Part shown: positions 892 through 23,688 of the stretch, piece after piece
Numbering within the stretch: the stretch's first letter is position 1
How the letters are laid out: each line of letters begins with the position of its first letter
Source of the DNA: an uncultured Prevotellaceae bacterium
GTDB lineage: Bacteria > Bacteroidota > Bacteroidia > Bacteroidales > Bacteroidaceae
Direction: 5' to 3'
NCBI GenBank assembly: GCA_937892315.1
Contig: CALAVF010000144.1
Span: 1 to 25,068 of the forward strand
Length of the DNA: 25,068 nucleotides
Position numbers and translations under genes: made by a program
Notes under the pieces: generated by a model
Database searches by the model: none
What the model saw: the letters and a program-made list of their open reading frames with translations, nothing else
Told to the model about the DNA's origin: nothing

Positions 892-908
892 CAAGCAAAA
901 TTGCAACT

Positions 909-1283
909 ATGTCAGAAAGAATAGATAAATACATGTTTGCCATGCGTATTTTCAAGACTCGCAGCATGGCGGCAGAAGCGTGCCAGAAAGGGCGAGTGAA
1001 GATGGGTGAGGTGGAACTGAAGCCATCGCGCACGGTGAGTGAGGGCGATGTATTCAGTCTAAGGCGCGACGGAATAGTGTTTTCGTATAAAGTGCTTAAA
1101 TTGTCGGAGAACCGCCTCGGAGCCAAGCTCGTGCCGGAATATATGCAGGATGTTACCGCGCCCGACCAATTACAATTGCTCGAGTTGTCGCGTTTAGCAG
1201 GCAAGTCAGGAAGGGATAGAGGTACAGGGCGTCCGACAAAAAAAGATCGCCGAGATATAGAAAGTTTCTTGAGCGAATACTAA
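909..1283 (+). CDS. S4-domain RNA-binding protein, Hsp15/HslR-like
   Basis: A 124-residue protein. The N-terminal ~60 residues form an S4 RNA-binding domain: RIDKYMFAMRIFKTRSMA, then ACQKGRVKMGEV with the characteristic G-x-V-x-[VI]-[NG] turn. A basic C-terminal tail (GKSGRDRGTGRPTKKDRRD) follows, as usual in Hsp15-type proteins. Known family role: Hsp15 binds 50S subunits carrying stalled nascent chains and helps recycle them. I chose ATG 909 because MSERIDKYMF is where the family normally begins and because the promoter -7 box ends at 891. It heads a co-directional run with the DUF4924-like gene 38 bp downstream. The domain call is firm; equivalence to E. coli HslR is by similarity of architecture only. 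Confidence 0.85.
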   Translation: MSERIDKYMFAMRIFKTRSMAAEACQKGRVKMGEVELKPSRTVSEGDVFSLRRDGIVFSYKVLKLSENRLGAKLVPEYMQDVTAPDQLQLLELSRLAGKSGRDRGTGRPTKKDRRDIESFLSEY

Positions 1284-1321
1284 AAGCTGTTTTGAGCCAA
1301 TACCGACTTAAACAAAAAGTA

Positions 1322-1786
1322 ATGATTATGTTATCGAAGAGAGAAAATATAGCAGAGTATATCCTGTACTTATGGCAGATAGAAGACTATCTGCGGGCGT
1401 TCCCCGAGCAGGCGGATGCCACGGAAGAGTTACACGACCTGAACGAGATGATGCATCGCGAAGGTATTATGGAAGGGGGGCATCTGCAACTGGCACAGAA
1501 CGCCTTGAACGAATTGGAAGAACTGCATGCCCAGTTATTGGACGAAGATGCCATTTACCGTGCTGCCACCATACGTCTGCAGCCGTCGCTAAACGTCCTC
1601 AAATCCAAAACAGACAGACCCACGATGAGCGATATTGAAGCAGGACTGATTCTGCTCTATCAAATTATGCTTCTGCGTCTGCAGCAGAAAGAAGTCTCCG
1701 CCGAGACCACACAAGTACAACTGCAAGTGACACCACTCTTCCAGTTTCTGAGCAAGACGTATGCGAAGATGAAGGAGGAAGGGTGA
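1322..1786 (+). CDS. DUF4924-like protein, function unknown
   Basis: About 154 residues, predominantly helical and acidic, with no signal peptide or membrane segment. The pattern RENIAEYILYLWQIEDYLRA near the N-terminus, then EMMHREGIMEGGHLQ and LILLYQIMLLRLQQKEVS, resembles my recollection of DUF4924, a Bacteroidota-restricted family of unknown function. Possible starts are ATG 1322 and ATG 1328; the in-frame TTG at 1292 is unlikely because it adds a non-conserved stretch. The stop codon TGA (1784-1786) is the first three bases of the 8-bp tandem repeat that leads into the next gene. No biochemical role is suggested by the sequence. Confidence 0.7.
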   Translation: MIMLSKRENIAEYILYLWQIEDYLRAFPEQADATEELHDLNEMMHREGIMEGGHLQLAQNALNELEELHAQLLDEDAIYRAATIRLQPSLNVLKSKTDRPTMSDIEAGLILLYQIMLLRLQQKEVSAETTQVQLQVTPLFQFLSKTYAKMKEEG

Positions 1787-1831
1787 AAGGGTGAAAGGGT
1801 GAAAGAGTGAAAGGGTGAAAGGATGAAAGGA
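1784..1831 (+). repeat. Six-copy 8-bp tandem repeat (TGAAAGGG) between two genes
   Basis: Six consecutive units TGAAAGGG, TGAAAGGG, TGAAAGAG, TGAAAGGG, TGAAAGGA, TGAAAGGA occupy the whole intergenic space. The first unit supplies the TGA stop of the upstream gene. The last A of the sixth unit is the A of the ATG at 1831. Every unit contains an AAAGG Shine-Dalgarno-like core, so the array is also the leader and ribosome-binding region of the downstream gene. Confidence 0.9.
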
Positions 1832-2940
1832 TGACAACCAAACAACGATTCGAACATATCCTCCGCTGGTTTGAGCAAAACATGCCTGTGGCAGAGAGCG
1901 AACTGGTGTACAACAACCCTTACGAGTTGCTGGTAGCGGTTATGCTGTCAGCTCAATGTACAGACAAACGCGTGAATATGGTCACTCCGTCTCTCTTTGC
2001 CGCCTACCCTACGGCAGAGTCGCTGGCAAAAGCCACAAGCGATGAGGTGTTTGACTATGTCATGGCAGCTAAGCGCAAATACAGACTGGACCCAGCTGAG
2101 CGCAACCTCAACACTGACGTTCAGACAAATCCGGACGAAGTGATTATGATAAGTAAGGACACTGCTTACGTGGATGACAACGGCGTGATACACCGCGAGA
2201 CGATAACAAGACCATTGTCAAGTTATTGGGATTTCGTAAACACGTATATCGTAAACGTGTATCCTGACACAACATGTTGGATTAACGATTTCCAAAACGC
2301 AGAGAATGAGGTGTACATGCGACTGTATTTCACTCACGCCAACTACAACGATTATCCTGTCGTTGGCGTAAACTGGGAACAAGCCAATGCATTCTGCAAC
2401 TGGAGAACAGACTTTCTGATAAGAGGACTTGGACCTTCCGCTAAATTCATTCAGCGTTACAGACTGCCGACCGAAGCTGAGTGGGAATTCGCGGCGCGAG
2501 GCAAGAACGGAAACGAGTTGCCTTGGGAACAGAACAGCGTATCCAGTGATAAGGGATGTTACTACGCGAACTTCAAACCGGACAGAGGAAACTACACCAA
2601 GGACGGTAATCTCATAACATCCAGAACTGGTATATACAGCGCAAACAGTAATGGCTTGTATGACATGGCAGGTAATGTCGCCGAATGGACAAGCAACGTA
2701 TACACTGAGGCAGGTGTATTGTCAATGAGTGACATGAATCCTACCCTTCTATACAATGCAGCCAAGGAAGACCCCTATGCACTGAAGAAGAAGAGTGTGC
2801 GTGGTGGCTCGTGGAAAGACCCCGAGAGTTTCATCAAGAGTGCATGGCGTTCCTTCGAGTACCAGAACGTAGGACGCTCCTTCGTAGGCTTCCGTTGCGT
2901 GAGGTCGCAGGTGGGGACTGCTTCGAGGGCGAAAAAATGA
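1831..2940 (+). CDS. In-frame fusion: endonuclease III N-terminus joined to the GldK SUMF1-like domain
   Basis: A single 369-residue frame with two unrelated parts. Residues 1 to ~75 match the start of endonuclease III (Nth), including LLVAVMLSAQCTDKRVNM. The Nth catalytic Lys and Asp, helix-hairpin-helix and Fe-S cluster cysteines are all absent. From about residue 77 the protein is GldK/PorK, the type IX secretion ring lipoprotein: LDPAERNLNTDV, MISKDTAYVDDNG, then a full FGE/SUMF1-like fold with YPVVGVNWEQANAFCNWR (~175), RLPTEAEWEFAARG (~211), GNVAEW (~281), VRGGSW (~323) and a terminal FVGFRCVR. The GldK signal peptide, lipobox cysteine and N-terminal region are missing. GldK normally sits in the outer membrane/periplasm with GldN, so this product would be mislocalised. 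Its place directly before gldL matches the usual gldK position. It is either a genuine deletion joining nth to gldK or an assembly chimera; the sequence alone cannot decide. Confidence 0.85.
   Translation: MTTKQRFEHILRWFEQNMPVAESELVYNNPYELLVAVMLSAQCTDKRVNMVTPSLFAAYPTAESLAKATSDEVFDYVMAAKRKYRLDPAERNLNTDVQTNPDEVIMISKDTAYVDDNGVIHRETITRPLSSYWDFVNTYIVNVYPDTTCWINDFQNAENEVYMRLYFTHANYNDYPVVGVNWEQANAFCNWRTDFLIRGLGPSAKFIQRYRLPTEAEWEFAARGKNGNELPWEQNSVSSDKGCYYANFKPDRGNYTKDGNLITSRTGIYSANSNGLYDMAGNVAEWTSNVYTEAGVLSMSDMNPTLLYNAAKEDPYALKKKSVRGGSWKDPESFIKSAWRSFEYQNVGRSFVGFRCVRSQVGTASRAKK
2041..2085 (+). other. Inferred nth/gldK junction
   Basis: The codons for DEVFDYVMAAKRKYRL (2041 onward) mark the change from Nth-like to GldK-like sequence. 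VFDY fits both an Nth helix (compare the E. coli 'VKTYIK' position) and, from memory, a tyrosine-rich stretch of GldK before the RLDPAERNLNTD block. The exact breakpoint may therefore be hidden in a short microhomology. No transposon, repeat or scar is visible at this point. Confidence 0.6.
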
Positions 2941-2981
2941 GAAAATGACAAATGATTAAATGAAGAAAAAACCAAAACATT

Positions 2982-3806
2982 ATGGCAACACAATATAATG
3001 CTATTCAGAAGTGGCTCAGAACCAAGAGGGGTCAGACTTTCTTGAACTACGCATACAGTTGGGGCGCATCCGTCGTGATTGCAGGTGCCCTCTTCAAACT
3101 CACCCACATCGCAGGTGCTGACATCATGCTCTTCTTGGGTATGGGCACCGAGGTCGTTGTGTTCTTCCTCGCAGGTTTCGAGCCGCAGGAGAGTTTCGAC
3201 GCACAAGAACTGGCAGAGGAGGCAGCCGAGAACGCTGCTATCGCTGCAAAGGTCAATGCCTCCCTCTCCGAAGAGACGGCAGCAGCCCTTGCCAACGCTG
3301 CCAATGTGGCAGCCCATGCACCGTCAGGCGGTGGAGCGGTAGTTGTTGGCGGTGGAGGTGTGCCAGGCGGTGGCACCATCGTCATCAATGGCAGCGGTGG
3401 AGGCTCTTCCGAAGGTGGTACATCGGCTTCTATCGATGCCGCCCAGTTGGCAGAGAACATTTCTTCTGCCCCTGTCTTCAACTCCGCACAGTTCCAGGGC
3501 ATGGCACCCGAGATGCAGGAGGCAACCAAGGCATACGTAGAGCAGTTGGCAGACCTTACCGACATTCTCAAGAAGGTGGCAGAGCAGAGTGCCCGTCTCA
3601 CCCGCGACTCCGAGGAGATGGAGAACATGAACCGCACCCTCACAGGCATCAATCGCTTCTACGAGATGCAACTCAAGAGCGTCGGCACCCAGTCTGCCAC
3701 CATCGACGAGGTGAACGATCAGACCAAGAAACTCGCAGCACAACTCCAAGAGTTGAACGATGTCTATTTCAAGATGGTTGAAGCACTCAAAATGAAGATT
3801 GCATGA
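2982..3806 (+). CDS. gldL: Type IX secretion motor protein GldL (PorL)
   Basis: 274 residues. GldL forms the inner-membrane proton-driven motor of the type IX secretion system with GldM. The N-terminus is cytoplasmic (KWLRTKRGQTFLNY). Two transmembrane helices follow at roughly residues 20-40 and 46-66 (WGASVVIAGALFKL; ADIMLFLGMGTEVVVFFLAG). TM2 carries the conserved Glu of the GldL family (GTEVV). The C-terminal cytoplasmic part has an alanine-rich segment, a glycine-rich linker at ~107-146 and a helical, coiled-coil-prone tail. Length is typical. It starts 41 bp after the gldK-containing frame and its stop overlaps gldM by 4 nt (ATGA), which indicates translational coupling. Identification is strong. 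Confidence 0.93.
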   Translation: MATQYNAIQKWLRTKRGQTFLNYAYSWGASVVIAGALFKLTHIAGADIMLFLGMGTEVVVFFLAGFEPQESFDAQELAEEAAENAAIAAKVNASLSEETAAALANAANVAAHAPSGGGAVVVGGGGVPGGGTIVINGSGGGSSEGGTSASIDAAQLAENISSAPVFNSAQFQGMAPEMQEATKAYVEQLADLTDILKKVAEQSARLTRDSEEMENMNRTLTGINRFYEMQLKSVGTQSATIDEVNDQTKKLAAQLQELNDVYFKMVEALKMKIA

Positions 3807-5362
3807 TACGAAAGAAGTTAAGTCCGCGTCAGAAGATGATCAATCTGATGTACGTAGTGCTGATGGCAATGTTGGCACTCAACGTTTCGTCGGATGTGCT
3901 CGAAGGCTTCTCGCTCGTGGACGAAGGTCTCAATCGCTCCAAGCAGAACTCTACCACGCAGAACGAGGCGATATACAAGGAACTGGATGCTGCCATGAAG
4001 CAGAATCCAGAGAAGACTCGCCAGTGGTTCGAGAAGGCACAGCAGGTTCGCAAGATGTCAGATTCGCTCTACAACTTCGCCGAGAACCTGAAGTGGGAGA
4101 TTGTGCGTGAGGCTGACGGAAAAGATGCCGACCTGAACAACATAGAAGGACGTGACAACCTCGAGGCTGCCACCCACGTGATGCTGGCTCCGGGCATTGG
4201 AAAAGGCGGAAAACTCAAGTCTGCCATCGAGTCCTATCGTGAGGGCATCACCAAGATGATTAACAACGAGCAGCAGAAGAAACTGATTCGTTCCAACCTC
4301 ACCACCGACGTGCCCCAGAAGGCAAAGTTGCAGGGTAAGAACTGGCAGGAATATATGTTCGAGAACACCCCCGTGGCTGCCGCAGTCACCCTGCTCACCA
4401 AACTCCAGACCGATGTGCGTCACGCCGAAGGCGAGATGCTCCACCAACTGATTGCCAACATCGACGTGAAGGATGTGCGTGTGAACCAAATCAACGCCTA
4501 TGTCATCCCCAACGCTCAGACCGTTGTCCGTGGAGGAAAGTTCTCCGCTCAAATCATCATGGCAGCAGTTGACACCACCCAGCGACCTGAAATCTACGTG
4601 GGCAACACGCTGCTCAAGTCGGAGAACGGACGCTATGAGACCATCTGTGGCTCCACTGGCGATTTCACCCTCAAGGGCTACCTCGTCATGAAGAACGGCG
4701 ACGGAGAGACCATCCGACGCGAGTTCTCACAGCCCTACACCGTGGTGGAACCTTCCGCTACGGTCAGTGCCACCATGATGAACATGCTCTATGCAGGTTA
4801 TCAGAATCCCATCAGCGTCAGTGTGCCAGGCGTGCCCAGCAACAAAATCAGTCTCTCCATGACCAACGGAACCCTCACCAAGAAGGACGGCAGCAACTAT
4901 GTGGCAGTGCCCTCCAAGGTGGGCGAAGATGTCACCTTCACCGTCACCGCGCAGAATGAGGGGCGCCAGCAGGAGATGGGCAAGTTCTCCTTCCACGTGC
5001 GTAAACTCCCTGACCCGACGGGTTATCTCGAATATACCGACTCCAAAGGCAATGCCACCCGATTCAAGGGCGGACGCATCTCCAAGCAAGCCATCGTGGC
5101 AGCAGGAGGCATCGGAGCCGCCATCGACGATGGTCTGCTCGACATCTCCTTCCGGGTGCTCGGTTTTGAAACCCTCTTCGTTGACAACATGGGCAACGTG
5201 GTGCCAGAGGTCAGTTCCTCTGCCTCCTTCACCCCCAACCAACTCACCCGTATCCGTTCTCTTAGCCGCGGCAAACTCTTCAACATCAGCCGCATCCGAG
5301 TGGTCGGACCCGACGGAATCGAACGAACTCTTACTTCGCCTGTCGAAGTCATAATAAACTAA
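3803..5362 (+). CDS. gldM: Type IX secretion motor protein GldM (PorM)
   Basis: 519 residues, the usual family length. It begins RKKLSPRQKMINLMYVVLMA, the family hallmark. A single transmembrane helix (~12-28) with N-terminus inside is followed by SSDVLEGFSLVDEGLNRS, also highly characteristic. The rest is the large periplasmic shaft, first helical (~35-220) and then beta domains (~225-519) rich in PGVPSNKISLSM- and FHVRKLPDP-type strands. GldM spans the periplasm and transmits GldL-generated torque to the GldK/GldN ring. It overlaps gldL by 4 nt, and gldN follows 6 bp after its stop. Third codon positions are strongly C-ending, as in gldL and gldN. Confidence 0.95.
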   Translation: MIRKKLSPRQKMINLMYVVLMAMLALNVSSDVLEGFSLVDEGLNRSKQNSTTQNEAIYKELDAAMKQNPEKTRQWFEKAQQVRKMSDSLYNFAENLKWEIVREADGKDADLNNIEGRDNLEAATHVMLAPGIGKGGKLKSAIESYREGITKMINNEQQKKLIRSNLTTDVPQKAKLQGKNWQEYMFENTPVAAAVTLLTKLQTDVRHAEGEMLHQLIANIDVKDVRVNQINAYVIPNAQTVVRGGKFSAQIIMAAVDTTQRPEIYVGNTLLKSENGRYETICGSTGDFTLKGYLVMKNGDGETIRREFSQPYTVVEPSATVSATMMNMLYAGYQNPISVSVPGVPSNKISLSMTNGTLTKKDGSNYVAVPSKVGEDVTFTVTAQNEGRQQEMGKFSFHVRKLPDPTGYLEYTDSKGNATRFKGGRISKQAIVAAGGIGAAIDDGLLDISFRVLGFETLFVDNMGNVVPEVSSSASFTPNQLTRIRSLSRGKLFNISRIRVVGPDGIERTLTSPVEVIIN

Positions 5363-5368
5363 CCGATT

Positions 5369-6460
5369 ATGAAAAAGATACTCTTCATACTGATGACGCT
5401 CACGATGGCTGGCACGCTTGCTGCCCAGCCTCAGAAGAGCCGAGTGCAGAACAACAGGACTGCCGCCCAGAAAACTCAGGCGACCACCTCCGACCGTGCC
5501 AGCCTTATGTTCCCCACGGCTGTTGATGTGCCCGAAGACCCGGCGTGGCGACGTGACATCTACCGTTCCATCGACCTCACCAAGGACGAGAACGCAGCCC
5601 TCTACTACCCTGTAGAGCCACAGGGCACGCAGGTCAACCTCTTCACCCTCCTCTTCCAGTTGCTCAACACTGGCAAGATTCCTGCCTACGAGTACCAACT
5701 CGACGGCATCGAGAACTTTGCCCAGAGCAATCGTATGCACTTCAAGGACATGCTTGAGCGGCAAGACATCTTCTATGAGGTGGACGGCAACAGCATCAAA
5801 GTAGCACAGGGCGACATCCCTTCCGCTGAGGTGCTCAGTTACTATGTGAAGGAAAGTTCTTACTACGACCAGAACACGGCGACTTATCATAGCCGCATCG
5901 TCGCCATCTGCCCCGTGCTCCATCGCTCTTCCGACGAGTTCAGTTACGGCGATGTGCAGAAGCGACCCCTCTTCTGGGTGAAGTACGACGACATCAAGAC
6001 CTACCTCAGCGGTCACGAAGTCATGACCAGCAACCTCAACAACGCTGCCCGGATGTCGATGGACGACTTCTTCTCCACCAACCACTACAAGGGCGAAATC
6101 TACATGACCACCAACATGCAGAACAAGTCCCTCCAGCAGTATTGTGCCACCGACTCCCTCCTGAAGAAAGAGCAGACACGCATCGAGAAGGAAATGACCG
6201 ACTTTGAAGAGCACATCTGGAAAGAACCTGTCGATTCCCTCGAACAAGCCAAGAAAGACTCCATCGCCGCCCTTGCCAACACCAAAGGCCGCCGCGTGAA
6301 GAGTCCTGCTGGAGCCAACTCCTCCTCCTCTTCTGCCGCACGCACCTCACGCCGAGGGTCCTCCGCAGCAGCCACCAAGAAAGAGAAATCCTCCTCTGGC
6401 GGTTCTTCTGGCGGAGGTAGCGGTGCTCCCCGCGTGTCAGTTCGCCGCCAGCGTCACTAA
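5369..6460 (+). CDS. gldN: Type IX secretion ring protein GldN (PorN)
   Basis: 363 residues with signal peptide MKKILFILMTLTMAGTLAAQ. The core ~45-250 contains family-typical segments such as WRRDIYRSIDLTKDENAALYYP near the start of the mature protein and KRPLFWVKYDDIKTYL around residue 200. GldN binds GldK to form the periplasmic ring of the type IX system. The last ~50 residues are low-complexity, rich in Ser/Gly/Ala with basic residues, ending RVSVRRQRH. From memory this tail is not part of the conserved core and may be lineage-specific. It is the last gene of the gld block, with 644 bp before the next gene. Confidence 0.92.
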   Translation: MKKILFILMTLTMAGTLAAQPQKSRVQNNRTAAQKTQATTSDRASLMFPTAVDVPEDPAWRRDIYRSIDLTKDENAALYYPVEPQGTQVNLFTLLFQLLNTGKIPAYEYQLDGIENFAQSNRMHFKDMLERQDIFYEVDGNSIKVAQGDIPSAEVLSYYVKESSYYDQNTATYHSRIVAICPVLHRSSDEFSYGDVQKRPLFWVKYDDIKTYLSGHEVMTSNLNNAARMSMDDFFSTNHYKGEIYMTTNMQNKSLQQYCATDSLLKKEQTRIEKEMTDFEEHIWKEPVDSLEQAKKDSIAALANTKGRRVKSPAGANSSSSSAARTSRRGSSAAATKKEKSSSGGSSGGGSGAPRVSVRRQRH

Positions 6461-6461
6461 A

Positions 6462-6789
6462 AGAAAAAAACCAAAGAGACAAGAGACAAAAAACCACCCC
6501 CGTGTCCCTGCTGCCTGTATTCCCATGCCCCAGCCGCCTATAGCCCGACAACGTTTTTGCCACATCGGGCAGGAGACGCTTGACCAGTCGGAGTAGGGAA
6601 GCGACAGCCATCGGGCAACAGTCACCCACACCTATCGGGTAGCGGTCACTCACACCTATCGGGTAGCGGTCACTCACACCTATCGGGTAGCAGTCACTCA
6701 CCCTTATTGGGCAACGGTCACACCCCCCATCAAGGAGGACACTGTATAGGAAAACGGTTTTTTGTCTCTTGTCTCTTTAGTTTTTTTCT
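6462..6789. repeat. Pair of 34-bp inverted repeats enclosing a repeat-rich spacer
   Basis: The 34-bp sequence at 6462-6495 (A-rich start, then CCAAAGAGACAAGAGAC and AAAAAACC) recurs as its reverse complement at 6756-6789 with one mismatch. The left arm starts 2 bp after the gldN stop. The 260 bp between the arms includes the 24-bp tandem array. No open frame with coding character lies between the arms and no clear target-site duplication flanks them. Confidence 0.8.
6610..6728. repeat. 24-bp tandem repeat array, about five copies
   Basis: Units begin with ATCGGG at 6610, 6634, 6658, 6682 and (as ATTGGG) 6706. The central two are identical; their first 16 bases are ATCGGGTAGCGGTCAC. The outer units differ at several positions. 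The period is exactly 24 bp with no spacers, so it is not a CRISPR array. One minus-strand frame through it is open and would encode a YPIGVSDR octapeptide, but it has no coding context. Confidence 0.9.
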
Positions 6790-6807
6790 CTCTCCCTCCC
6801 GCCTCGC

Positions 6808-6862
6808 TTATTATATATTATATATTATATATATTATAATATTATATATTATATATATATAA
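6808..6862. repeat. AT-only low-complexity tract
   Basis: A ~55-bp run composed almost solely of TA/TAT units in an otherwise ~50% GC region. It is strongly self-complementary. It lies between the right arm of the inverted repeat and a third, partial copy of the repeat (6906-6931). Function is unknown; it may be an easily melted or bent region, or slippage-generated simple sequence. Confidence 0.8.
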
Positions 6863-6905
6863 ACAAACTTCCCCCCCTACCTAAATATCCCCCATCGCAG
6901 GAGAG

Positions 6906-6931
6906 ACCAAAAAGACAAGAGACAAAAAACC
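6906..6931 (+). repeat. Third copy of the AAGAGAC-type repeat
   Basis: 26 bp matching the distal part of the 6462-6495 arm, same orientation, with one mismatch (AAAAGAC for AAGAGAC). Like the right arm read on the minus strand, it is followed by GTTT. Confidence 0.7.
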
Positions 6932-7036
6932 GTTTCTGTTGTTCAAAACAGGGGGGCTGACTGTCATGAGACTATAGCAGAAGGCACTTGCCCTCTGTCA
7001 TCGTTATGCTTTCGAAGAAAGAATAATCCAAATAAA

Positions 7037-7068
7037 TTTGTTTTTTCTCTCACTTATCCGTAACTTTG
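7037..7068 (+). promoter_or_regulatory. Bacteroidota-type promoter of the threonine operon
   Basis: TTTG (7037-7040) and TAACTTTG (7061-7068, exact TAnnTTTG) are separated by 20 bp, an excellent match to the Bacteroidota housekeeping consensus. Initiation near 7073-7076 would leave a leader of about 30 nt before the thrA ATG at 7105, too short for a peptide-type attenuator. Confidence 0.75.
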
Positions 7069-7104
7069 CACCCGATTTTGATATTGTACAATATAGAACG
7101 CTGA

Positions 7105-9591
7105 ATGAAGGTATTAAAGTTTGGCGGAACCTCGGTGGGTTCCGTGGAGAGTATTCTCAATTTGAAAAAGATTGTGGAGGCTTGTCAGGAGCCTGTGATT
7201 GTGGTAGTGTCGGCTTTGGGTGGCATTACGGACAAACTCATCGGCACTTCGAAACTGGCGGTGGCTGGTGATGCGACTTATCTGACGGCTTACGAGGAAA
7301 TGGTGGAGCGTCACCACCAGATGATTGACGCAATTATCACAGACACAGAGAAGAAGGCTCGGCTGCTGGGCACGGTGGACGAGTTGCTGGGGCAACTGAA
7401 GAGCATCTATCAGGGTGTGTTCCTGATTGGCGACTTGAGCGAGAAGACGAGCAACGTGATTGTGTCTTACGGCGAGCGGATTTCGAGCAATATTGTGGCG
7501 ACGCTCATCGAGAACGCCAAGTGGTATAACTCGCTGGAGTTTATCAAGACGAAGCACAAGCAGGGCAGGAATCTGTTCAGCAATTCGGTGAGTATGCCGC
7601 TGATTCTGGAGGCTTTCAAGGACTTTAAGGAGGGCAAGGCTGACCATCGGGTGTGTCTGGCTCCTGGTTTCATTGCCACCGACAGCGTGACGGGCGAGGT
7701 GACGAACCTGGGCAGAGGCGGCAGTGACTATACGGCTGCGATTTTGGCTGCGGCACTGGATGCCGAGGTGCTGGAGATTTGGACAGACGTGTCTGGATTC
7801 ATGACTGCCGACCCGAGGGTGATTAACACGGCATACCCGATTGACAAACTCTCCTACGTGGAGGCAACGGAGTTGTGCAACTTCGGTGCGAAGGTGGTGT
7901 ACCCGCCAACGATTTATCCGGTGTGTGTGAAGAAGATTCCAATTCTCGTCAAGAATACGTTCCGTCCCGAGGATAAGGGTACCATCATCACGAATCTGGA
8001 GGCAGGTGACGACAACGGACGTGCCATCAAGGGCATTTCGAGCATCAACAACACGAGCCTGATTACGGTGAGTGGTTTGTCGATGGTGGGTGTGATTGGT
8101 GTGAACCGACGCATCTTCACGACGTTGGCAGAGAATGGCATCAGCGTGTTCATGGTGAGCCAGGCAAGTTCGGAGAACAGCACGTCTATCGGTGTGACGG
8201 ATAGCGATGCTGAACGGGCATGTGAGGTGCTGAACCGCGAGTTCCAGAAGGAGATAGAGATGGGCGCGATGTACAAGATGAAACTGGAGAGCGACTTGGC
8301 AACGGTGGCGATTGTGGGCGAGAACATGAAGCATACGCCTGGCATTGCGGGCAAGTTGTTCGGCACGTTGGGACGAAACGGTATCAGCGTGATTGCCTGT
8401 GCTCAGGGTGCGAGCGAAACGAACATCTCGTTTGTGGTGGAGCGGAAGAGTCTGCGGAAGTCGCTGAATGTGATTCACGATTCGTTCTTCCTGTCGGAAT
8501 ATCAGGTGCTGAATGTGTTCCTGTGTGGCGTCGGCACGGTGGGCGGCAGCCTGCTGGAGCAGATTGCCAGTCAGCAGAAGAAATTGATGGGGGAGCGGAA
8601 CCTGAAGATTAACATCGTGGGCATTGCGAGTGGACACAATGCGGTGTTCAATCGGGATGGCATCGACTTGCTGCAATTTACGGAAGACAATGCTTTCTCC
8701 ATCAAGAAACTGCGTGCGGCGTTGAAGGCGGCTGAACCGAGCAACATCAAGCGGCTGAAGAACGAGGTCATTGGCATGAACATCTTCAACAGCGTGTTTG
8801 TGGATTGTACGGCAAGCACGGAGGTGGCAAATCTGTACGAAGACTTCTTGAGCAACAACATCTCGGTGGTGGCTGCGAACAAGGTGGCGGCATCGAGCGA
8901 CTATGCGAACTATGCGAAACTGAAGGCGACGGCACGGAAGAGGGGCGTGAAGTATCTGTTTGAGACGAATGTGGGTGCTGGATTGCCCATTATCAATACG
9001 ATTAACGACCTCATCAACTCAGGCGACAAGATTCTGAAGTTGGAGGCGGTGCTGAGTGGCACGCTCAACTTCTTCTTCAACAAAATCAGTGCCGAGGTGC
9101 CTTTCAGCGAGACGGTGCGTATGGCGAAGGAGGAAGGATACAGCGAACCCGACCCACGCATCGACCTGAGTGGCAAGGATGTGGTGAGAAAGTTGGTGAT
9201 TCTGTCTCGCGAGGCAGGTTATCAGATGAATCAGGAGGACGTGGAGAAGAAGTTGTTCATTCCTCAGTCGTTCTTCGACGGTTCGCTGGAGGACTTCTGG
9301 AAGAACCTGCCATCGTTGGATGCTGACTTTGAGAAGGAGCGTCAGGAGGTGGAGGCTGCCAATCAGCACTGGAAGTTTGTGGCAAAACTGGAGAACGGGA
9401 AGGGTAGTGTGTCTTTGCAGCGTGTGGGCGAGCACCATCCGTTCTACGACCTCGAAGGCTCTAACAATATCATCCTCATCACGACGGAGCGTTACAACCA
9501 GTACCCCATGCTCATTCAGGGCTACGGTGCAGGTGCTTCGGTGACGGCTGCCGGCGTGTTTGCGGACATCATGTCAATAGCCAATATCTGA
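7105..9591 (+). CDS. thrA: Bifunctional aspartokinase / homoserine dehydrogenase
   Basis: 828 residues, the normal length for ThrA-type fusions. It catalyses the first and third steps of the aspartate pathway to threonine (aspartate to aspartyl-phosphate; aspartate semialdehyde to homoserine). Aspartokinase is N-terminal with KFGGTSVGS at residues 5-13 and GRGGSDYTAAIL at ~203. Two ACT regulatory segments follow (around SLITVSGLSMVGVIGV and VAIVGENMKHTPGIAGKLF). The dehydrogenase begins with the NAD(P)-binding CGVGTVGGSL at ~474 and includes VAANKVA (~592), GAGLPII and LSGTLNF. It is first in a thrA-apgM-thrC operon with a clear upstream promoter. Feedback inhibition by threonine is expected from the ACT domains but not shown here. 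Confidence 0.97.
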   Translation: MKVLKFGGTSVGSVESILNLKKIVEACQEPVIVVVSALGGITDKLIGTSKLAVAGDATYLTAYEEMVERHHQMIDAIITDTEKKARLLGTVDELLGQLKSIYQGVFLIGDLSEKTSNVIVSYGERISSNIVATLIENAKWYNSLEFIKTKHKQGRNLFSNSVSMPLILEAFKDFKEGKADHRVCLAPGFIATDSVTGEVTNLGRGGSDYTAAILAAALDAEVLEIWTDVSGFMTADPRVINTAYPIDKLSYVEATELCNFGAKVVYPPTIYPVCVKKIPILVKNTFRPEDKGTIITNLEAGDDNGRAIKGISSINNTSLITVSGLSMVGVIGVNRRIFTTLAENGISVFMVSQASSENSTSIGVTDSDAERACEVLNREFQKEIEMGAMYKMKLESDLATVAIVGENMKHTPGIAGKLFGTLGRNGISVIACAQGASETNISFVVERKSLRKSLNVIHDSFFLSEYQVLNVFLCGVGTVGGSLLEQIASQQKKLMGERNLKINIVGIASGHNAVFNRDGIDLLQFTEDNAFSIKKLRAALKAAEPSNIKRLKNEVIGMNIFNSVFVDCTASTEVANLYEDFLSNNISVVAANKVAASSDYANYAKLKATARKRGVKYLFETNVGAGLPIINTINDLINSGDKILKLEAVLSGTLNFFFNKISAEVPFSETVRMAKEEGYSEPDPRIDLSGKDVVRKLVILSREAGYQMNQEDVEKKLFIPQSFFDGSLEDFWKNLPSLDADFEKERQEVEAANQHWKFVAKLENGKGSVSLQRVGEHHPFYDLEGSNNIILITTERYNQYPMLIQGYGAGASVTAAGVFADIMSIANI

Positions 9592-9592
9592 T

Positions 9593-10894
9593 ATGAAGCA
9601 TATTATTATCTTGGGTGACGGCATGGCAGATTGGCATGTGGAGTCGCTGGGCGGAAAGACGCTGCTCCAGTATGCCAAGACACCTTATATGGACATGCTT
9701 GCCAAAGTGGGCAGGACGGGTATGCTGAAGACGGTGCAGGACGGATTCCACCCTGGCTCAGAGGTGGCGAACTCGAGCATCCTCGGCTATGACCAGAACG
9801 AGGTGTATGAGGGTCGTGGCCCTTTAGAGGCTGCCAGCATCGGCGTGGAACTGGCTCCTGACGACATGGCGATTCGCAGCAACATCATCTGCATCGAGGG
9901 CGACCACATCAAGAACCATTCGTGTGGAAGGCTGGAGACAGAAGAGGGCGATGTGCTGATCAAGTATTTGCAGGAGAAGTTGGCGAATGACCCCGAAGTG
10001 GTGGAGAAGTATGGCAACGTGGTGCATTTCTATACGGGTGTGCAGTACAGGCATCTGCTGGTCATCAATGGTGGCAGCAAACACTTGGTGTGTACACCAC
10101 CTCATGATGTGCCGCTGAAGCCGTGGAAGCCACTGCTGGTGAAGCCCGACCTGGAGGCGGAGAAGAAAGACCCTCACAAGTCGAAACTCTCGGCGACGGA
10201 GACGGCGGAGTTGCTGAATCTGCTGATTGTGAAGAGTCAGAAACTGTTGGGTGAACACCCGTTCAATGCTCAACGCATCGCTGAAGGGAAAGACCCAGCC
10301 AACTCCATCTGGCCCTGGGCAGGAGGCTATCGTCCGCACATGGTGCCGCTGACGACGACTTTCCCCCAGATTAAACGGGGTGCGGTCATCACGGCTGTTG
10401 ACCTCATCAGGGGCATCGGCTCGCTGGCAGGCTTGCGGATCATCAATGTGGAAGGTGCTACGGGGCTTTACGATACCAACTATGAAGGGAAGGCACAGGC
10501 AGCCATTGAGGCGTTGAAGACGGACGATTTCGTCTATCTGCATATCGAGGCATCTGATGAGGCTGGACATGACGGCGACTTGGAACTGAAACTCCTGACA
10601 ATTGAGAATCTGGACAGCCGTGCCATCAAACTTATCTACGAAGAGGTGAAGAACTGGGGAGTGGCTGGCACTCCGACGGCTGACTTGGAACCTGTTGCCA
10701 TTGCCGTCTTGCCTGACCACCCGACGCCCATCGCACATCGGACACATACGAATGAACCGATTCCTTTCCTCATTTATGCTCCTGGCATCGAAGCGGATGA
10801 TGTGGAGGTGTTTGACGAGGACGCTTGCAAGGCAGGTGCTTACGGACTGTTGGAAAAGGATGGGTTTATCAGAGCGTTTATGGATATAAAATAA
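9593..10894 (+). CDS. apgM: ApgM-family (alkaline phosphatase superfamily) protein, proposed homoserine kinase
   Basis: 433 residues starting 1 bp after the thrA stop (TGATATG), so translation is coupled. The N-terminus IIILGDGMADW carries the metal-binding Asp. GSEVANSSILGYD (~55-67) holds the nucleophile Ser. Later metal ligands are in HIEASDEAGHDGD and LPDHPTPIAHRTHTNEPIPF. This is the archaeal-type cofactor-independent phosphoglycerate mutase family (2,3-bisphosphoglycerate-independent). Bacteroidota members embedded between thrA and thrC have been annotated as a proposed homoserine kinase, since no thrB is present. The family is certain; the kinase role here is inferred from operon position. 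Confidence 0.9.
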   Translation: MKHIIILGDGMADWHVESLGGKTLLQYAKTPYMDMLAKVGRTGMLKTVQDGFHPGSEVANSSILGYDQNEVYEGRGPLEAASIGVELAPDDMAIRSNIICIEGDHIKNHSCGRLETEEGDVLIKYLQEKLANDPEVVEKYGNVVHFYTGVQYRHLLVINGGSKHLVCTPPHDVPLKPWKPLLVKPDLEAEKKDPHKSKLSATETAELLNLLIVKSQKLLGEHPFNAQRIAEGKDPANSIWPWAGGYRPHMVPLTTTFPQIKRGAVITAVDLIRGIGSLAGLRIINVEGATGLYDTNYEGKAQAAIEALKTDDFVYLHIEASDEAGHDGDLELKLLTIENLDSRAIKLIYEEVKNWGVAGTPTADLEPVAIAVLPDHPTPIAHRTHTNEPIPFLIYAPGIEADDVEVFDEDACKAGAYGLLEKDGFIRAFMDIK

Positions 10895-10900
10895 GAAGAT

Positions 10901-12202
10901 ATGATATTTTACAGTACAAACGGACAGGCTCCTGTTGCTACGCTGGAAAAGGCGGTGGTGAAGGGGTTGGCAGAGGACAAGGGACTTTATATGCCAGAAC
11001 GCATCAAGGCTCTTCCTCAGGAGTTTTTTGACCATATAGAGAACCTTTCATTCCAAGAGATTGCTTACACCGTGGCAGATGCCTTCTTCGGTGAAGATGT
11101 GCCTGCTGAGGATTTGAAGAAGATTGTGTATGACACGCTGGCGTTTGACTGCCCTTGTGTAAAGGTGACAGATAGTATCTATTCGTTGGAGTTGTTTCAT
11201 GGTCCTACGTTGGCTTTCAAGGATGTGGGTGCCAGATTTATGGCTCGCCTGTTGCAGTATTTCTTGAAGAAAGAGGGTAAGGGACAGGTGAATGTGCTGG
11301 TGGCTACCTCGGGTGATACGGGAAGTGCGGTGGCAAATGGCTTCTTGGGCGTGGATGGCATTCATGTGTATGTGCTCTATCCGAAGGGAAAGGTAAGCCC
11401 GATTCAGGAGTGCCAGTTCACCACATTGGGCAAGAACATCACGGCAGTGGAGGTGGATGGTGTGTTTGACGATTGCCAGGCACTGGTGAAGAATGCCTTT
11501 ATGGATGCCGACCTCAATGCTCACATGAGGCTGACATCAGCCAACTCTATCAACGTGGCACGTTTCCTCCCACAAGCGTTCTACTACTTCTATGCATACG
11601 CTCAGATGAAGAAACGTGGTTTGGCTGACCAACTGGTGGTGTGTGTGCCATCGGGCAATTTCGGCAATATCTGTTCGGCACTGTTTGGCAAGAAGATGGG
11701 GCTGCCCATCAAGCGTTTCATTGCTGCCAACAATGCTAACGACATCTTCTTCAAATATCTGCAAACAGGCAAGTATGAGCCGAAACCATCTGTTCAGACC
11801 ATTGCTAATGCGATGGACGTGGGCGACCCGAGCAATTTTGCCCGTATCTACGACCTGTATGGCAAGAGTCATGCGGCGATTACGGCAGACATCAGCGGTG
11901 CTACTTACACGAATGAGCAGATTGCCGAAACCATTAAGGAGGTGAAAGCGAAGACGGGTTACGTGTGCGACCCTCATGGGGCATGTGGCTATCGTGCCTT
12001 GAAAGAAGGATTGAAGGAAGGCGAAGTGGGCGTGTTCCTCGAAACGGCTCACCCAGCCAAGTTCAAAGATACGGTGGATGGCATCCTTGGCGAGAACATC
12101 GAGATTCCTGCCAAACTTCAGGCATTCATGCAGGGAACGAAGCAGAGTGTGCCGATGGGCAGGGACTTTGCCGCCTTTAAGCAGTATCTTCTGGCTGAAT
12201 AA
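10901..12202 (+). CDS. thrC: Threonine synthase
   Basis: 433 residues. It converts O-phosphohomoserine to threonine using pyridoxal phosphate. The N-terminal threonine synthase domain is recognisable (YSTNGQAPVATLEKAV, EDKGLYMPE). The PLP-binding lysine is Lys107 in HGPTLAFKDVGARF. The Ser/Thr-Gly phosphate-binding loop is VATSGDTGSAVANGF, and VPSGNFGNICSALFGKKMG lies further on. It starts 6 bp after the apgM stop, completing the operon that makes threonine from aspartate semialdehyde. Length and domain order are normal. Confidence 0.97.
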   Translation: MIFYSTNGQAPVATLEKAVVKGLAEDKGLYMPERIKALPQEFFDHIENLSFQEIAYTVADAFFGEDVPAEDLKKIVYDTLAFDCPCVKVTDSIYSLELFHGPTLAFKDVGARFMARLLQYFLKKEGKGQVNVLVATSGDTGSAVANGFLGVDGIHVYVLYPKGKVSPIQECQFTTLGKNITAVEVDGVFDDCQALVKNAFMDADLNAHMRLTSANSINVARFLPQAFYYFYAYAQMKKRGLADQLVVCVPSGNFGNICSALFGKKMGLPIKRFIAANNANDIFFKYLQTGKYEPKPSVQTIANAMDVGDPSNFARIYDLYGKSHAAITADISGATYTNEQIAETIKEVKAKTGYVCDPHGACGYRALKEGLKEGEVGVFLETAHPAKFKDTVDGILGENIEIPAKLQAFMQGTKQSVPMGRDFAAFKQYLLAE

Positions 12203-12218
12203 AAAAAGGAGTGTTTCT

Positions 12219-14288
12219 ATGAAATCGAGCAAGCAGCAAAAACGTACTGACATCACCCGCTTTCTGATGAAGGTGGCATTGGTGGTCGTGTCAACGGTAT
12301 TGATTGTCTATTTCATGCCGAGGGGCGATGAGTTTGGCTATAAGTATGAGCAGAACATGCCTTGGAACTACGGTTTGCTGATTGCCAATACAAAGTTCCC
12401 TATCTTGAAGAATGACTCAGTCATTCATAAGGAGCGGGAACTGACCAAGCGACGTTTCCAGCCTTACTTCCACTATGAGAAAGAAGTGAAGGACAGTATG
12501 GTGAATCGTCTGTATCATCATGCCGCTCAAGAGTGGAATGGGGAGAACGCCACAATGTATGTACACCACATTGCGGTTTTGCTGGATACGATTTATCGTC
12601 ATGGTGTGCTGTCTGTCGAAGACTATACGCAGCAATCGGACGAGGAGCATCACAAGAACATCCGCATTGTGAATGACAATTTGGCGACGTCTGTCCCTTT
12701 GTCCAGCGTTTATTCTCCACGTTCTGCCTACAAATACATCATGTCGGCAGACACAGCCAAATATTCGCGTCTGGTCTTGCAGCAGTACAATATCAATGAA
12801 CTGATTCAACCCAACTTGACCTATGATGAGATGATGTCGAAGGAAGAGTTGGATGAGCAGTTGCAGGGCATTTCGAACTATAGCGGTTTTGTGCAGGCAG
12901 GACAGAAGATTATTGACCGTGGCGAGACGGTGACAGATGAGATTTACGATATTTTGTATTCCTATCAGAAAGACTTTGAACGGCGGAACACGGATAGTGC
13001 GGAACTGCCTTATAAGTCTATCGGGCAGACCATCTTTGTGCTGGTCATCCTCACCATCCTCATTTCCTATCTGACGCTTTTCCGTGCAGATTATTTCGAC
13101 AATGCCCGTAGTGGCATTCTGCTTTTCGCTTTGCCTGTGGCTTTCTGCATCATCGCCTCGTTGATGATGTCGCATAAGATACTGAATGTGTTCATGTTGC
13201 CATGTTGTATGGTGCCTATCATCATCCGTGTGTTCATGGATTCTCGTACCGCCTTTATGTTCCACACGGGCATGGTGCTCATCATCTCTCTGATGCTGAC
13301 CAGCAACTATGAGTTCATTATCTTGCAGTTGGTGGCAGGTATGGTTGCCATCCAGACCTTGCGTGAACTCTCACAGCGTTCGCAGATTATCCGCACGGCG
13401 TTCATCATTTTCTGTGTCTATGTGATATTCTATACGGGTTATTCGCTCTACCATGAGAACGGCGTCAAGATGGACACGTGGATGTATGTGTGCTTCTCTG
13501 TGAATTGTGTGCTGCTGATGTTCACCTATCCGATGCTGTGGGTGTTTGAGAAACTCTTCGGCTTTGTCAGCGATGTGACGCTGGTAGAATTGAGCAATGT
13601 GCACAATCCGCTTTTGCAGCGAATGACAGAAGTGGCTCCTGGCACTTTCCAGCACTCCATGCAGGTGGCAAACCTCAGTGCGGAGGTGGCGAACAAGATT
13701 GGAGGAAAGGCACAGTTGGTGCGTACAGGTGCCCTCTATCATGACATTGGCAAGATGGAGCGTCCTGTCTTCTTCACGGAGAATCAGAACGGTGTGTCGC
13801 CTCACAAGCACTTGACCCCGTTGAAGAGTGCCGAGGTCATCATTGCCCATGTAGCCAATGGTGTGGCACTTGCCGATAAGAATCACATCCCCAATTCCAT
13901 CAAGCGTTTCATCCTCACGCACCACGGAAAGGGCAAGGCGAAGTATTTCTACATCACTTACAAAAACGAGCATCCAGACGAAGAGATTGATGAGGCAGCA
14001 TTCACCTATCCTGGTCCGAACCCCAGCACGAAGGAAGAGGCAATCCTGATGATGTGTGATGCTACAGAAGCAGCCTCACGTTCCCTGCCAGAATACACGG
14101 AAGAGAGCATCAATCAGTTGGTTGACAGGATTATAGATGCCCAAGTGGCAGAAGGATTCTTTAGCGAGTGCTCCATCACGTTCAAGGATATTGCCGTGGC
14201 AAAAGCCGTCTTGAAAGATAAGTTGAAGACCATCTACCACACACGCATTTCCTATCCGGAACTGAACAATGCAACCAATGAGTTGTAG
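12219..14288 (+). CDS. 7TM-HD domain phosphohydrolase, PgpH-type
   Basis: 689 residues from ATG 12219, chosen because AAAAAAAGGAG (12201-12211) is a good ribosome-binding site and upstream frame overlaps thrC. An N-terminal membrane helix (~17-33) precedes a ~250-residue extracytoplasmic 7TMR-HDED domain. A seven-helix block spans ~265-455. The cytoplasmic HD domain has His479 (QHSMQVANLSAEVA), His508-Asp509 (YHDIGKM) and a later THHGKGK. Known family role: PgpH-type proteins degrade the second messenger c-di-AMP in Firmicutes and some other bacteria. Substrate is not established from this sequence. It lies 16 bp after thrC but is functionally unrelated to threonine synthesis. Confidence 0.88.
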   Translation: MKSSKQQKRTDITRFLMKVALVVVSTVLIVYFMPRGDEFGYKYEQNMPWNYGLLIANTKFPILKNDSVIHKERELTKRRFQPYFHYEKEVKDSMVNRLYHHAAQEWNGENATMYVHHIAVLLDTIYRHGVLSVEDYTQQSDEEHHKNIRIVNDNLATSVPLSSVYSPRSAYKYIMSADTAKYSRLVLQQYNINELIQPNLTYDEMMSKEELDEQLQGISNYSGFVQAGQKIIDRGETVTDEIYDILYSYQKDFERRNTDSAELPYKSIGQTIFVLVILTILISYLTLFRADYFDNARSGILLFALPVAFCIIASLMMSHKILNVFMLPCCMVPIIIRVFMDSRTAFMFHTGMVLIISLMLTSNYEFIILQLVAGMVAIQTLRELSQRSQIIRTAFIIFCVYVIFYTGYSLYHENGVKMDTWMYVCFSVNCVLLMFTYPMLWVFEKLFGFVSDVTLVELSNVHNPLLQRMTEVAPGTFQHSMQVANLSAEVANKIGGKAQLVRTGALYHDIGKMERPVFFTENQNGVSPHKHLTPLKSAEVIIAHVANGVALADKNHIPNSIKRFILTHHGKGKAKYFYITYKNEHPDEEIDEAAFTYPGPNPSTKEEAILMMCDATEAASRSLPEYTEESINQLVDRIIDAQVAEGFFSECSITFKDIAVAKAVLKDKLKTIYHTRISYPELNNATNEL

Positions 14289-14365
14289 GCTTTCTGCAGA
14301 AGGGGAATGCGACGGGGTGAGAGAAAGAGAAACAAGGTAAAAAGATATAATAGGTAAAGAGAAAA

Positions 14366-15874
14366 ATGAAGAATAAACTTTGGCAGACATTTCTGCTTGT
14401 GCTTCTGGTGCTGGTGGCATTGATAGGCTTGTTCTATCTGCCACGCATGAAGATGTTTGACACCGACCTTCGTCGTGTGAACATCCTCAGCGATGTGCAG
14501 CGTCGTGATAAGGACGGCAAGATATTGGCAGAAGTCGTCGCCGATTCGCTCGATGGCTATGTGGAGCAAGGCGTTGATTCTGCAGCCATCAAGGTCAAGC
14601 AACTGCATTATGTCGATTCCGTTCCTGTCGGAATGACCGCCACCGAGGATTTTGCGGACATAAAGGGTGTCAATCGTGAGATGGACATCTTCTATGCAGC
14701 ACTTGACCATGTGTCAGAGCGTCCTGTACGCATCGCCTACTTTGGCGATTCTTATATTGAGGGCGATATCCTTACGATGGACTTGCGAGGATTGTTGCAG
14801 CAGAAATACGGTGGTCGAGGCGTTGGTTTTGTGGAGATTCAGTGTGTCTCTTCCGATTTTCGCCGTTCCCTCACCACCAAACGCAGTGGTTGGAGCAATT
14901 ATCATGCCAATGAGAAAGGCAGAGGATTCAAGGCTTCGTTGCAGGGTCCTGCTGGCAGTTATTTTATCCCCAGTGGGTCGGCCACTTACGAGATGCGTGG
15001 CACCAAAAATGTCTATCCCAACTTGTTGGATACAGCCGAGGTGGCAACCGTCTATTTCACGCCGGGCACAGGGTTGAACATCAACTATGCCATCAATGGC
15101 GGTGAAAGCCAGTCGCTCTTCTCCAATGGCACCCCTGTCGAGCCAGAAACATACGAGGAGGTGATAGAGGAACTCGACTCCGATTCGGTGGTACATTACA
15201 AGACCGTCACTCGCCAAGTGGCTCAGGCAACCAACGACGCTTGCTATGTGAAGGCAGAGTCAGTGAAAGGTCGCATCGGAAAGTTCAACATGAAGATTTC
15301 GGGCGGTGGCGGGTCACGCTTTTATGGTGTGGCTCTCGACGGACAGCATGGTATCTCGCTCGATAACTTCAGCATGAGAGGCAGCGGTGGTCAGCACCTG
15401 CTCAAAGTGCCTCAAGAGACCTTGCGAAGTTTTGCCGCTGTGCGTCCTTATGACCTCATCATCCTCCATTTCGGCCTGAACGTGGCAGGGCCTAAGCAGA
15501 AAGATTACAGTTCGTATGTGTCGCAGATAGGGAAGGTGGTGGAGCACATGAAAGATGCGTATCCCCATGCCAGCATCCTGATTGTCAGCATTGGCGACCG
15601 TGACGCTCGTGGCTCTGACGGACAGATGCACACGATGGGCGGCATTCAGGAGTTGGTTTCTTATCAGCGAAAGATGGCAAGCGACCAGCACGTGGCATTC
15701 TGGAATCTCTACGAGGCGATGGGTGGCGACGGAAGTCTTGTCAAGATGGTGGAGAACAAACAGGCAAATAAGGATTACACCCACATCAATTTTGCAGGAG
15801 GTCGTCATCTGGCAGAACTGCTGTTTGATGTGCTGATGAACGGAAAAAAGAATTACGACAATCGTGTTCATTAA
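14366..15874 (+). CDS. SGNH/GDSL hydrolase-like membrane-anchored protein (first of two)
   Basis: 502 residues. One N-terminal transmembrane anchor (~6-25: TFLLVLLVLVALIGLFYLP) is followed by an extracytoplasmic part. SGNH blocks are present: Ser129 in YFGDSYIEGD (block I), FGLN near residue 375 (block III with Asn), and Asp470-x-x-His473 in KDYTHINFAGG (block V). The region between blocks I and III (~150-360) is long and beta-rich, a probable carbohydrate-binding insertion. SGNH proteins beside MBOAT genes usually work as O-acetyltransferases or esterases on exported polysaccharide (compare AlgJ/AlgX and PatB). It overlaps the next SGNH gene by 11 nt if that uses the GTG start. Confidence 0.85.
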   Translation: MKNKLWQTFLLVLLVLVALIGLFYLPRMKMFDTDLRRVNILSDVQRRDKDGKILAEVVADSLDGYVEQGVDSAAIKVKQLHYVDSVPVGMTATEDFADIKGVNREMDIFYAALDHVSERPVRIAYFGDSYIEGDILTMDLRGLLQQKYGGRGVGFVEIQCVSSDFRRSLTTKRSGWSNYHANEKGRGFKASLQGPAGSYFIPSGSATYEMRGTKNVYPNLLDTAEVATVYFTPGTGLNINYAINGGESQSLFSNGTPVEPETYEEVIEELDSDSVVHYKTVTRQVAQATNDACYVKAESVKGRIGKFNMKISGGGGSRFYGVALDGQHGISLDNFSMRGSGGQHLLKVPQETLRSFAAVRPYDLIILHFGLNVAGPKQKDYSSYVSQIGKVVEHMKDAYPHASILIVSIGDRDARGSDGQMHTMGGIQELVSYQRKMASDQHVAFWNLYEAMGGDGSLVKMVENKQANKDYTHINFAGGRHLAELLFDVLMNGKKNYDNRVH

Positions 15875-16775
15875 CGCTCGACATATCATCCGCATGGCAC
15901 TCGGTGTCTTCGTTTTCGTCCTCTTCGGAAGCGGAGCCGTTGCTCAGTCGCTTTACACGCCCTTCCCCTCCAACTTCCGCAACACGCGTTCCAACGAGTT
16001 GATAGAGGGTTCTTCGCTTGAACCTGTGTTCAAGAAGTTGCAGCAGAAGAAGACGGTGAAAGTCATGCAGATAGGCGACTCCCACGTCAAGGGAAACTAC
16101 CTGCCACGTGCACTTGGCAACACCCTGCAGAACTACTTTCCACGCCTCGAATTCGCCTACTATGGCATCAACGGGGCATGGGCACGTCGTTTCTACGAGC
16201 AGGACATGATTAACCGTGTGGCAACCGAGCGTCCCGACCTCGTGGTCATCTCCTTTGGCACCAACGAGGCGCATGGCAATACCATCGACGAGCGTGCTCA
16301 TGCCGAAACCATGAACCTGCTCACACAGCGTATCAGCGAGCGATGCCCAGACGTGTGTTTCCTCTTCACCACACCTCCTGGCAGTTATATCTCTCAGCGG
16401 ACAGGCAGTTACACGACGGGCAGGGGACGTTACAGGCGGACACACTACAACACCGTGAAGGTGCCCAATGCCAACACCGCCAATGTGGCTCGCAGTATCG
16501 TCAAGTTCTGCCAGACGCACTACTTTGCCGTGTGGGACATCTACACCATTGCCGGCGGTGCTACATCCGCCTGTTCCAATTGGCGAGATGCAGGCTTGAT
16601 GAACACCGACTGCATCCACTACCTCGCCTCTGGTTACACCCTTCAGGGGAAACTGCTTGGCGAGGCTATCTACAAAGCATATTCAGGTACTGCCGTGTCG
16701 GGTAGTCAGACGCGTATGATGCACGGCTCCACACCGCAGGAGCAGAAGCCTTACATGTCAGTAAAAGGATTTTAA
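15864..16775 (+). CDS. SGNH/GDSL hydrolase-like secreted protein (second of two)
   Basis: 303 residues from a GTG at 15864; ATG 15894 is the alternative. The longer form is preferred because RHIIRMALGVFVFVLFGSG gives a signal peptide with a basic n-region, ending near GAVAQ. It is compact compared with the upstream paralogue. Block I is QIGDSHVKGNYL (Ser73), GINGAW supplies block II, FGTNEAH block III, and Asp249-x-x-His252 in TDCIHYLASGY block V. The full catalytic Ser/Gly/Asn/Asp-His set is present, so it should be active. Start overlap with the upstream gene and a 3-bp gap to the MBOAT gene argue for one transcript and a joint function. Confidence 0.85.
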   Translation: MFINARHIIRMALGVFVFVLFGSGAVAQSLYTPFPSNFRNTRSNELIEGSSLEPVFKKLQQKKTVKVMQIGDSHVKGNYLPRALGNTLQNYFPRLEFAYYGINGAWARRFYEQDMINRVATERPDLVVISFGTNEAHGNTIDERAHAETMNLLTQRISERCPDVCFLFTTPPGSYISQRTGSYTTGRGRYRRTHYNTVKVPNANTANVARSIVKFCQTHYFAVWDIYTIAGGATSACSNWRDAGLMNTDCIHYLASGYTLQGKLLGEAIYKAYSGTAVSGSQTRMMHGSTPQEQKPYMSVKGF

Positions 16776-16778
16776 GAA

Positions 16779-18419: not shown

Positions 18420-18431
18420 GGAAGTATTATA

Positions 18432-18514
18432 AGTGAAAAATGAAAAATTTGCTATCACAGCAGTTGCCAATGGTTGACCGTGCAAGTGCGGTAGCAAATT
18501 TTTCACTTTTCACT
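18432..18514. terminator. Long inverted repeat between convergent genes, possible bidirectional terminator
   Basis: 23-bp arms at 18432-18454 and 18492-18514 (AGTGAAAAATGAAAAATTTG then CTA, and its reverse complement) differ at one base and enclose 37 bp. It lies between the MBOAT stop (18419) and the HU-related gene stop (18524), where a bidirectional terminator is expected. The A/T-rich arms supply T-runs on both strands. The unusual arm length suggests it may instead be, or derive from, an interspersed repeat. Confidence 0.55.
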
Positions 18515-18523
18515 CATCACTTT

Positions 18524-18925
18524 TCATTTGTCATCCATCTCCTGCTGATACTCGTATCCGTTCTCCGCAATCGCCTGTTGCAGAGGCTGATGCGGATAGA
18601 ACCGAACCTTCACGCCCTTGATGCTGTCCGCAGGCTCTCCCAAGGCATCCGATGTCTCTGCCGATGCCGAGTTGATGACCGGCTTCAGCGTGCCGATGCC
18701 GTCAATCTGCACCGTGCGGCCAATCTTCAGGTAGTGAGAGACACGATCCATGAGTGCACCCACCACGCCCATTGTTTTACTGGGATTCTCGCCACATGAT
18801 TCCGCACACTCCTTCACCAACTCCTTGAAGGTGATGATGGGCAGTGCAGGCGACTGATAAATCCATGCATCATGCTGTCCGTCTGGACGCACGATTTTCT
18901 TCCTTGCTTTTCTTACGACTAACAT
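18524..18925 (-). CDS. HU-related DNA-binding protein
   Basis: 133 residues. It resembles the Bacteroidota HU-related family: an N-terminal ~25-residue extension, then an HU-type fold with ITFKELVKECAES, a helix ending MGVVGALMDRVSHYLKIGRTVQIDGIGTLKPVI (helix plus the conserved [IV]xxxGfGtf-like strand), and VKVRFYPHQPLQQAI toward the C-terminus. Such proteins are small nucleoid or DNA-bending proteins; individual roles are generally unknown. The start is supported by AAGGAG five nucleotides upstream of the ATG. It converges with the MBOAT gene and is separated from the anti-sigma gene by 327 bp. Confidence 0.8.
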   Translation of the reverse strand: MLVVRKARKKIVRPDGQHDAWIYQSPALPIITFKELVKECAESCGENPSKTMGVVGALMDRVSHYLKIGRTVQIDGIGTLKPVINSASAETSDALGEPADSIKGVKVRFYPHQPLQQAIAENGYEYQQEMDDK

Positions 18926-20524: not shown

Positions 20525-20536
20525 TTTCTTTTGTTT

Positions 20537-21055: not shown

Positions 21056-21163
21056 TGCCTTTTTGTTGTTTTTTAGATGCATCTGACATAAAGACTCGGA
21101 AATGTCCAAAAAGATTTAAATGAACGAGATGAATTATGAAAATAGTGGGGGAAAAAGTCAAGG

Positions 21164-21206: not shown

Positions 21207-21235
21207 CTATATGTGCATTGGTGTGAGGACAAAAT

Positions 21236-22612: not shown

Positions 22613-22702
22613 GGAATGCAGTCCTTTGTTCCAAGTGTAGAGTGGGATGAGTCGCATGAGGAAATAGGTGTTTTGTGTTAATATTTGAATTTCTGTTATT
22701 GC

Positions 22703-23683: not shown

Positions 23684-23688
23684 GGCTG

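Follow-up and report, generated by a model that had tools for sequence, protein, structure and literature searches.

The stretch of 25,068 nucleotides analysed here (the window) holds an open reading frame that begins as endonuclease III (Nth) and ends as GldK. This raises the question of whether some cell carries such a fused gene, whether a deletion brought two genes of one genome together, or whether the contig joins DNA of two organisms. We favour the last answer at a probability of about 0.93: judged by sequence comparison, the window would be a chimeric metagenome contig, an inter-genome misassembly joining a left-hand source to a right-hand source, and neither a fused gene nor a deletion.

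Results

Composition of the open frame

The frame of 369 residues at 1831-2940 on the plus strand was confirmed, and the reading given in an earlier note on this DNA, that it consists of the start of Nth and the remainder of GldK, was borne out. Residues 5-78 match NCBIfam nth (TIGR01083) over profile positions 2-75 of 192 at 72.5 bits, short of the curated cut-off of 211.7 bits over the whole enzyme, and residues 114-360 match GldK (TIGR03525) over positions 173-407 of 408 at 336.7 bits, which does not reach the curated 350 bits. Neither identification arose by chance, given E-values of 3.4e-20 and 2.4e-100 respectively; among Pfam domains, HhH-GPD lies at residues 35-76 and FGE-sulfatase at residues 132-358. 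The head of GldK is missing, as the same note had held: residue 72 of the frame pairs with residue 180 of the 477-residue GldK of the closest genome compared (G001; L118:3872-5305), and relative to that protein the N-terminal 179 residues are absent. We take the cysteine at residue 20 of the G001 protein to be the lipidation site by its motif; by eye, neither it nor the signal peptide of GldK stands at the N-terminus of the frame, which is that of Nth.

The genes run in the order S4-DUF4924-nth/gldK, followed by gldL, gldM and gldN (Table 1), where left-hand and right-hand denote the two sides of the joint. The S4-domain gene is presumably Hsp15-like. Two tandem repeats lie among these genes, one of 8 bp in 7 copies at 1779-1834 between the DUF4924 gene and nth (unit AAGGGTGA), and one of 24 bp in 4.7 copies at 6610-6721 downstream of gldN.

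Table 1. Features on either side of the joint, with the source assigned by comparison and the basis of each entry
Feature	Position	Strand	Source	Basis
S4-domain gene	909..1283	+	left-hand	61-74% amino-acid identity in 45 of 46 loci (L068-L113); colinear in L069
DUF4924 gene	1328..1786	+	left-hand	Pfam PF16271
nth, 5' part	1831..2041	+	left-hand	TIGR01083, residues 5-78
21-base source-switch stretch	2042..2062	+	fits either gene	ungapped comparison with nth and gldK rows
gldK without its first 179 residues	2063..2940	+	right-hand	TIGR03525; 81-92% amino-acid identity in same-genus genomes
gldL	2982..3806	+		TIGR03513, PF22827
gldM	3803..5362	+		TIGR03517
gldN	5369..6460	+		TIGR03523

The right-hand source

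DNA identity to G001 is 92-97% over most of 2044-25035, made up of 92% to contig C38 for window 2044-6823 (the first base of C38 pairs with 6823), 94-97% to contig C42 for 6855-17971 and 18085-19182, and 95% to contig C52 for 19100-25035. About 113 bases at 17972-18084, inside an MBOAT-type gene, have no G001 counterpart (546 residues in the window, 522 in G001). In G001 the gldK gene is whole and lies 3' of a gene that we take, by eye, to be PorP-like. All 25 same-genus genomes compared for it carry gldK as an open frame of 478-524 residues, at 81-92% amino-acid identity to the GldK part of the window, and of 45 genomes in the genus 43 have an nth that scores above the cut-off. In G001 nth is likewise whole (214 residues), on another contig than gldK and with neighbours that differ from those in the window. 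Since records titled Bacteroidaceae bacterium or Prevotellaceae bacterium stand among the best 120 of 8000 scored proteins, we call this source Prevotella-like, and on these identities the part from about 2063 onwards, gldK-L-M-N and beyond, is assigned to such a bacterium.

The left-hand source

A scan of genome contigs for DUF4924 returned 48 loci, of which 46 (L068-L113, with record titles of Paludibacteraceae or Bacteroidales) stand at 64-82% identity and two, from Tannerellaceae, at 34-36%. Of 41 genomes in the right-hand genus, 39 have a DUF4924 relative at 33-41% along the main stretch matched, and the other two (G001 and G008) gave no match. At the DNA level, positions 1-2080 match 34 of 45 genomes of that genus in short patches only, consisting of nth at 69-80%, minor fragments of the S4 gene, the DUF4924 gene and spacer, and the gldK end from 2039. 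One-piece alignments at 66-68% DNA identity, by comparison, join window 905-2057 to L069, 922-2062 to L068 and 924-2062 to L076, and in L069 the order is S4-DUF4924-nth (214 residues)-recA, the last named by eye.

Protein comparison of the 46 left-type loci with 62 loci of the right-hand genus (L001-L026 and L032-L067) separates the two sides of the window; L027-L031, from other families of the order, and the Tannerellaceae loci L114-L115 belong to neither group. The S4 protein is found at 61-74% in 45 of the 46 left-type loci and in none of the 62, and DUF4924 at 64-82% in all 46 as against 33-39% in 8 of 62. Nth residues 1-70 stand at 64-87% (median 77%) in all 46 versus 57-65% (median 61%) in 9 of 62, ranges that touch. 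GldK shows the reverse, with none in the left-type loci and 81-93% in 26 of 62. Most of the 62 loci were fetched round one gene and several overlap, so absences among fetched loci say little. The four left-type genomes examined all have a gldK of their own, elsewhere in the genome and at 45-49% identity; three of these matches were counted with one stop codon inside, probably the gene end.

On this evidence window 905-2041, with S4, DUF4924 and nth, is attributed to a Paludibacteraceae-like Bacteroidales bacterium, and the left and right sides are thereby placed in different families of Bacteroidales. Positions 1-904, to the left of this assignment, hold part of a minus-strand gene. A phage origin of 1-2080 was considered and set aside, as the stretch has no match in the phage collection.

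The joint

We aligned 2000-2110 ungapped with 30 nth rows (23 from L068-L113, the other 7 from loci of the right-hand genus) and with 18 gldK rows representing 17 distinct places, since L001 and L049 are an identical place. All 30 nth rows and none of the 18 gldK rows carry the window's base at 2041; at 2063 every gldK row agrees with the window and every nth row differs. Read from these rows, the change of source is sharp and falls between these two bases, within the 21 bases of 2042-2062 and inside the interval 2041-2085 where the earlier note had placed it. That note had also pointed to a VFDY on the Nth side that could belong to GldK, which fits: the 21 bases are compatible with both genes, the peptide at this site being EVFDYV in G001 GldK, EVFEYI in Nth of L069 and DVFVYV in Nth of G001. 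The codon phase at the switch is identical for the nth and gldK peptides, and because similar peptides are encoded in the same phase the frame stays open across the joint without any selection.

As judged on relatives and not on the parents themselves, up to 21 bases fitting both genes could serve as a k-mer bridge in assembly, although the relatives are not identical throughout. One gldK relative (L004) is identical to the window over 2042-2060; no exact run of at least 12 bases reaching 2061 was found in any nth relative among L068-L113, and the window's base at 2061 is shared by 15 of 30 nth rows and by none of 18 gldK rows. We infer that the whole stretch was common to both true parents. 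Common assemblers begin with k-mers near 21, and two random 3-Mb genomes are expected by chance to share about 4 21-mers and 65 19-mers. One other genome (G264) contains an exact 22-base match to 2041-2062 away from its nth-like match, which illustrates how such short bridges originate.

Search for the joint elsewhere

No joint-spanning match was present in the 45 genomes of the right-hand genus, with up to the best 6 candidates per genome scored. Across the order, 19 of 393 genomes match 1960-2150 (up to the best 2 candidates per genome scored), and none among the matches listed spans both sides. Relatives of both sides lack the joint, each continuing past 2041-2063 in its own gene. Among proteins, no Nth-GldK fusion was seen in the best 120 of 8000 scored, whose coverage of the query does not exceed 88% and whose only domain is PF03781; a known family of such fusions, tried as a candidate, thus had no example there. 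Searches with Rfam and for tRNAs and repeats revealed no mobile element at the joint: no Rfam family reached the gathering score in the window, L116 or L117, and the window contains no tRNA.

A second discontinuity

The G001 match changes from contig C42 to C52 at 19100-19182, with an overlap of 83 bases that encloses a 23-bp tandem repeat at 19115-19179. Both G001 contigs continue beyond the repeat. On the C42 side the G001 genes past it also lie near this region in two relatives (G055 and G043), and on the C52 side G001 has an oadB-like gene for which no counterpart turned up in the stretches fetched from G060, G019, G055 and G043; for this reason the relatives favour the G001 order on the C42 side only. 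The window joins here what G001 keeps apart, which may reflect either repeat recombination or a second misassembly. The repeat is short, intergenic and palindromic-looking, is also seen at L116:6041-6105 and L117:4818-4882, and its motif occurs in 3 of 122 loci, two of them one place (L058 and L117).

Discussion

With its two sources labelled as different families, its switch inside 21 bases that fit either gene, full-length genes in the relatives and no second example in what was searched, the window looks like an inter-genome misassembly. The k-mer-driven misassembly that the earlier note had offered as one possibility agrees with the sharp switch in a 21-base stretch fitting both genes and with the full-length GldK of G001. 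In such an event the assembler would have left one genome and entered the other by way of up to 21 identical bases at 2042-2062, identical because nth and gldK encode similar peptides there in the same codon phase, and that phase would also have kept the frame open across the joint. We infer that the joining took place in the computer, neither inside a cell nor in a library tube, and the Nth-GldK fusion most likely exists in no cell. Against a chimera stand the open frame, which a real fusion would also show, the touching Nth identity ranges of the two groups, and base 2061, at which no gldK row agrees. An open frame, however, says little for a real fusion where the two genes encode a similar short peptide in the same phase.

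Improbable, if the best placed of the alternatives, is a real event between families, in which a Prevotella-like bacterium took up Paludibacteraceae-type DNA and microhomology recombination at 2042-2062 replaced the start of gldK with a foreign nth start. Illegitimate recombination also yields an open frame and a switch within a short stretch fitting both genes, but here it would break a gene that is full-length in 25 of 25 genomes of the genus, it is shown by no genome searched and by none of the best 120 of 8000 proteins, the joint showed no mobile element in the Rfam, tRNA and repeat searches, and nothing specific speaks in favour of the transfer. Were it true, there would be a natural strain with a GldK lacking its export signal and an altered type IX secretion machine. 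Less probable again is a physical chimera made before sequencing, in which ligation or amplification joined two fragments; this would likewise account for two sources and for a short stretch of similarity, but a single molecule would rarely attain the depth needed for a contig of more than 25 kb. A deletion or rearrangement fusing the nth and gldK of one genome has next to no standing: relatives do have both genes, and in all 23 genus genomes (of 25) with both listed the two lie on different contigs, but G001 nth has other neighbours, DUF4924 stands at 33-41% in the right-hand genus against 64-82% in left-type loci, and the reading is rejected, as the left block differs from what the right-hand genus carries.

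The favoured reading, an inter-genome misassembly, also bears on what the earlier note had drawn from the frame. Its proposal that one strain had lost or relocated both genes runs against the different family of the left side and against relatives that keep gldK and nth apart and full-length. For the same reasons the loss of Nth activity and the cytoplasmic GldK that it had envisaged do not follow. The practical meaning is one of quality control only: the contig is to be split at 2041-2063, and the 369-residue fusion is not to be taken as a natural Nth-GldK protein.

Set beside known systems, the frame shares with endonuclease III (TIGR01083) the first 75 of 192 positions, covered by its residues 5-78, and differs in that positions 76-192 are missing, which we take to include the helix-hairpin-helix, the catalytic residues and the iron-sulphur cysteines. 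With the GldK/PorK lipoprotein of the type IX secretion system (TIGR03525) it has in common positions 173-407 of 408 and the gldL-M-N neighbourhood, and it differs in being without the 179 N-terminal residues that hold the presumed signal peptide and lipidation cysteine. The metaMIC article (PMC9661791) reports that no type of error is more frequent in CAMI assemblies than inter-genome translocations. Although the breakpoint here keeps an open frame and is placed by comparison of sequences, the window resembles the translocation misassemblies described there in having flanks from different genomes and one sharp breakpoint.
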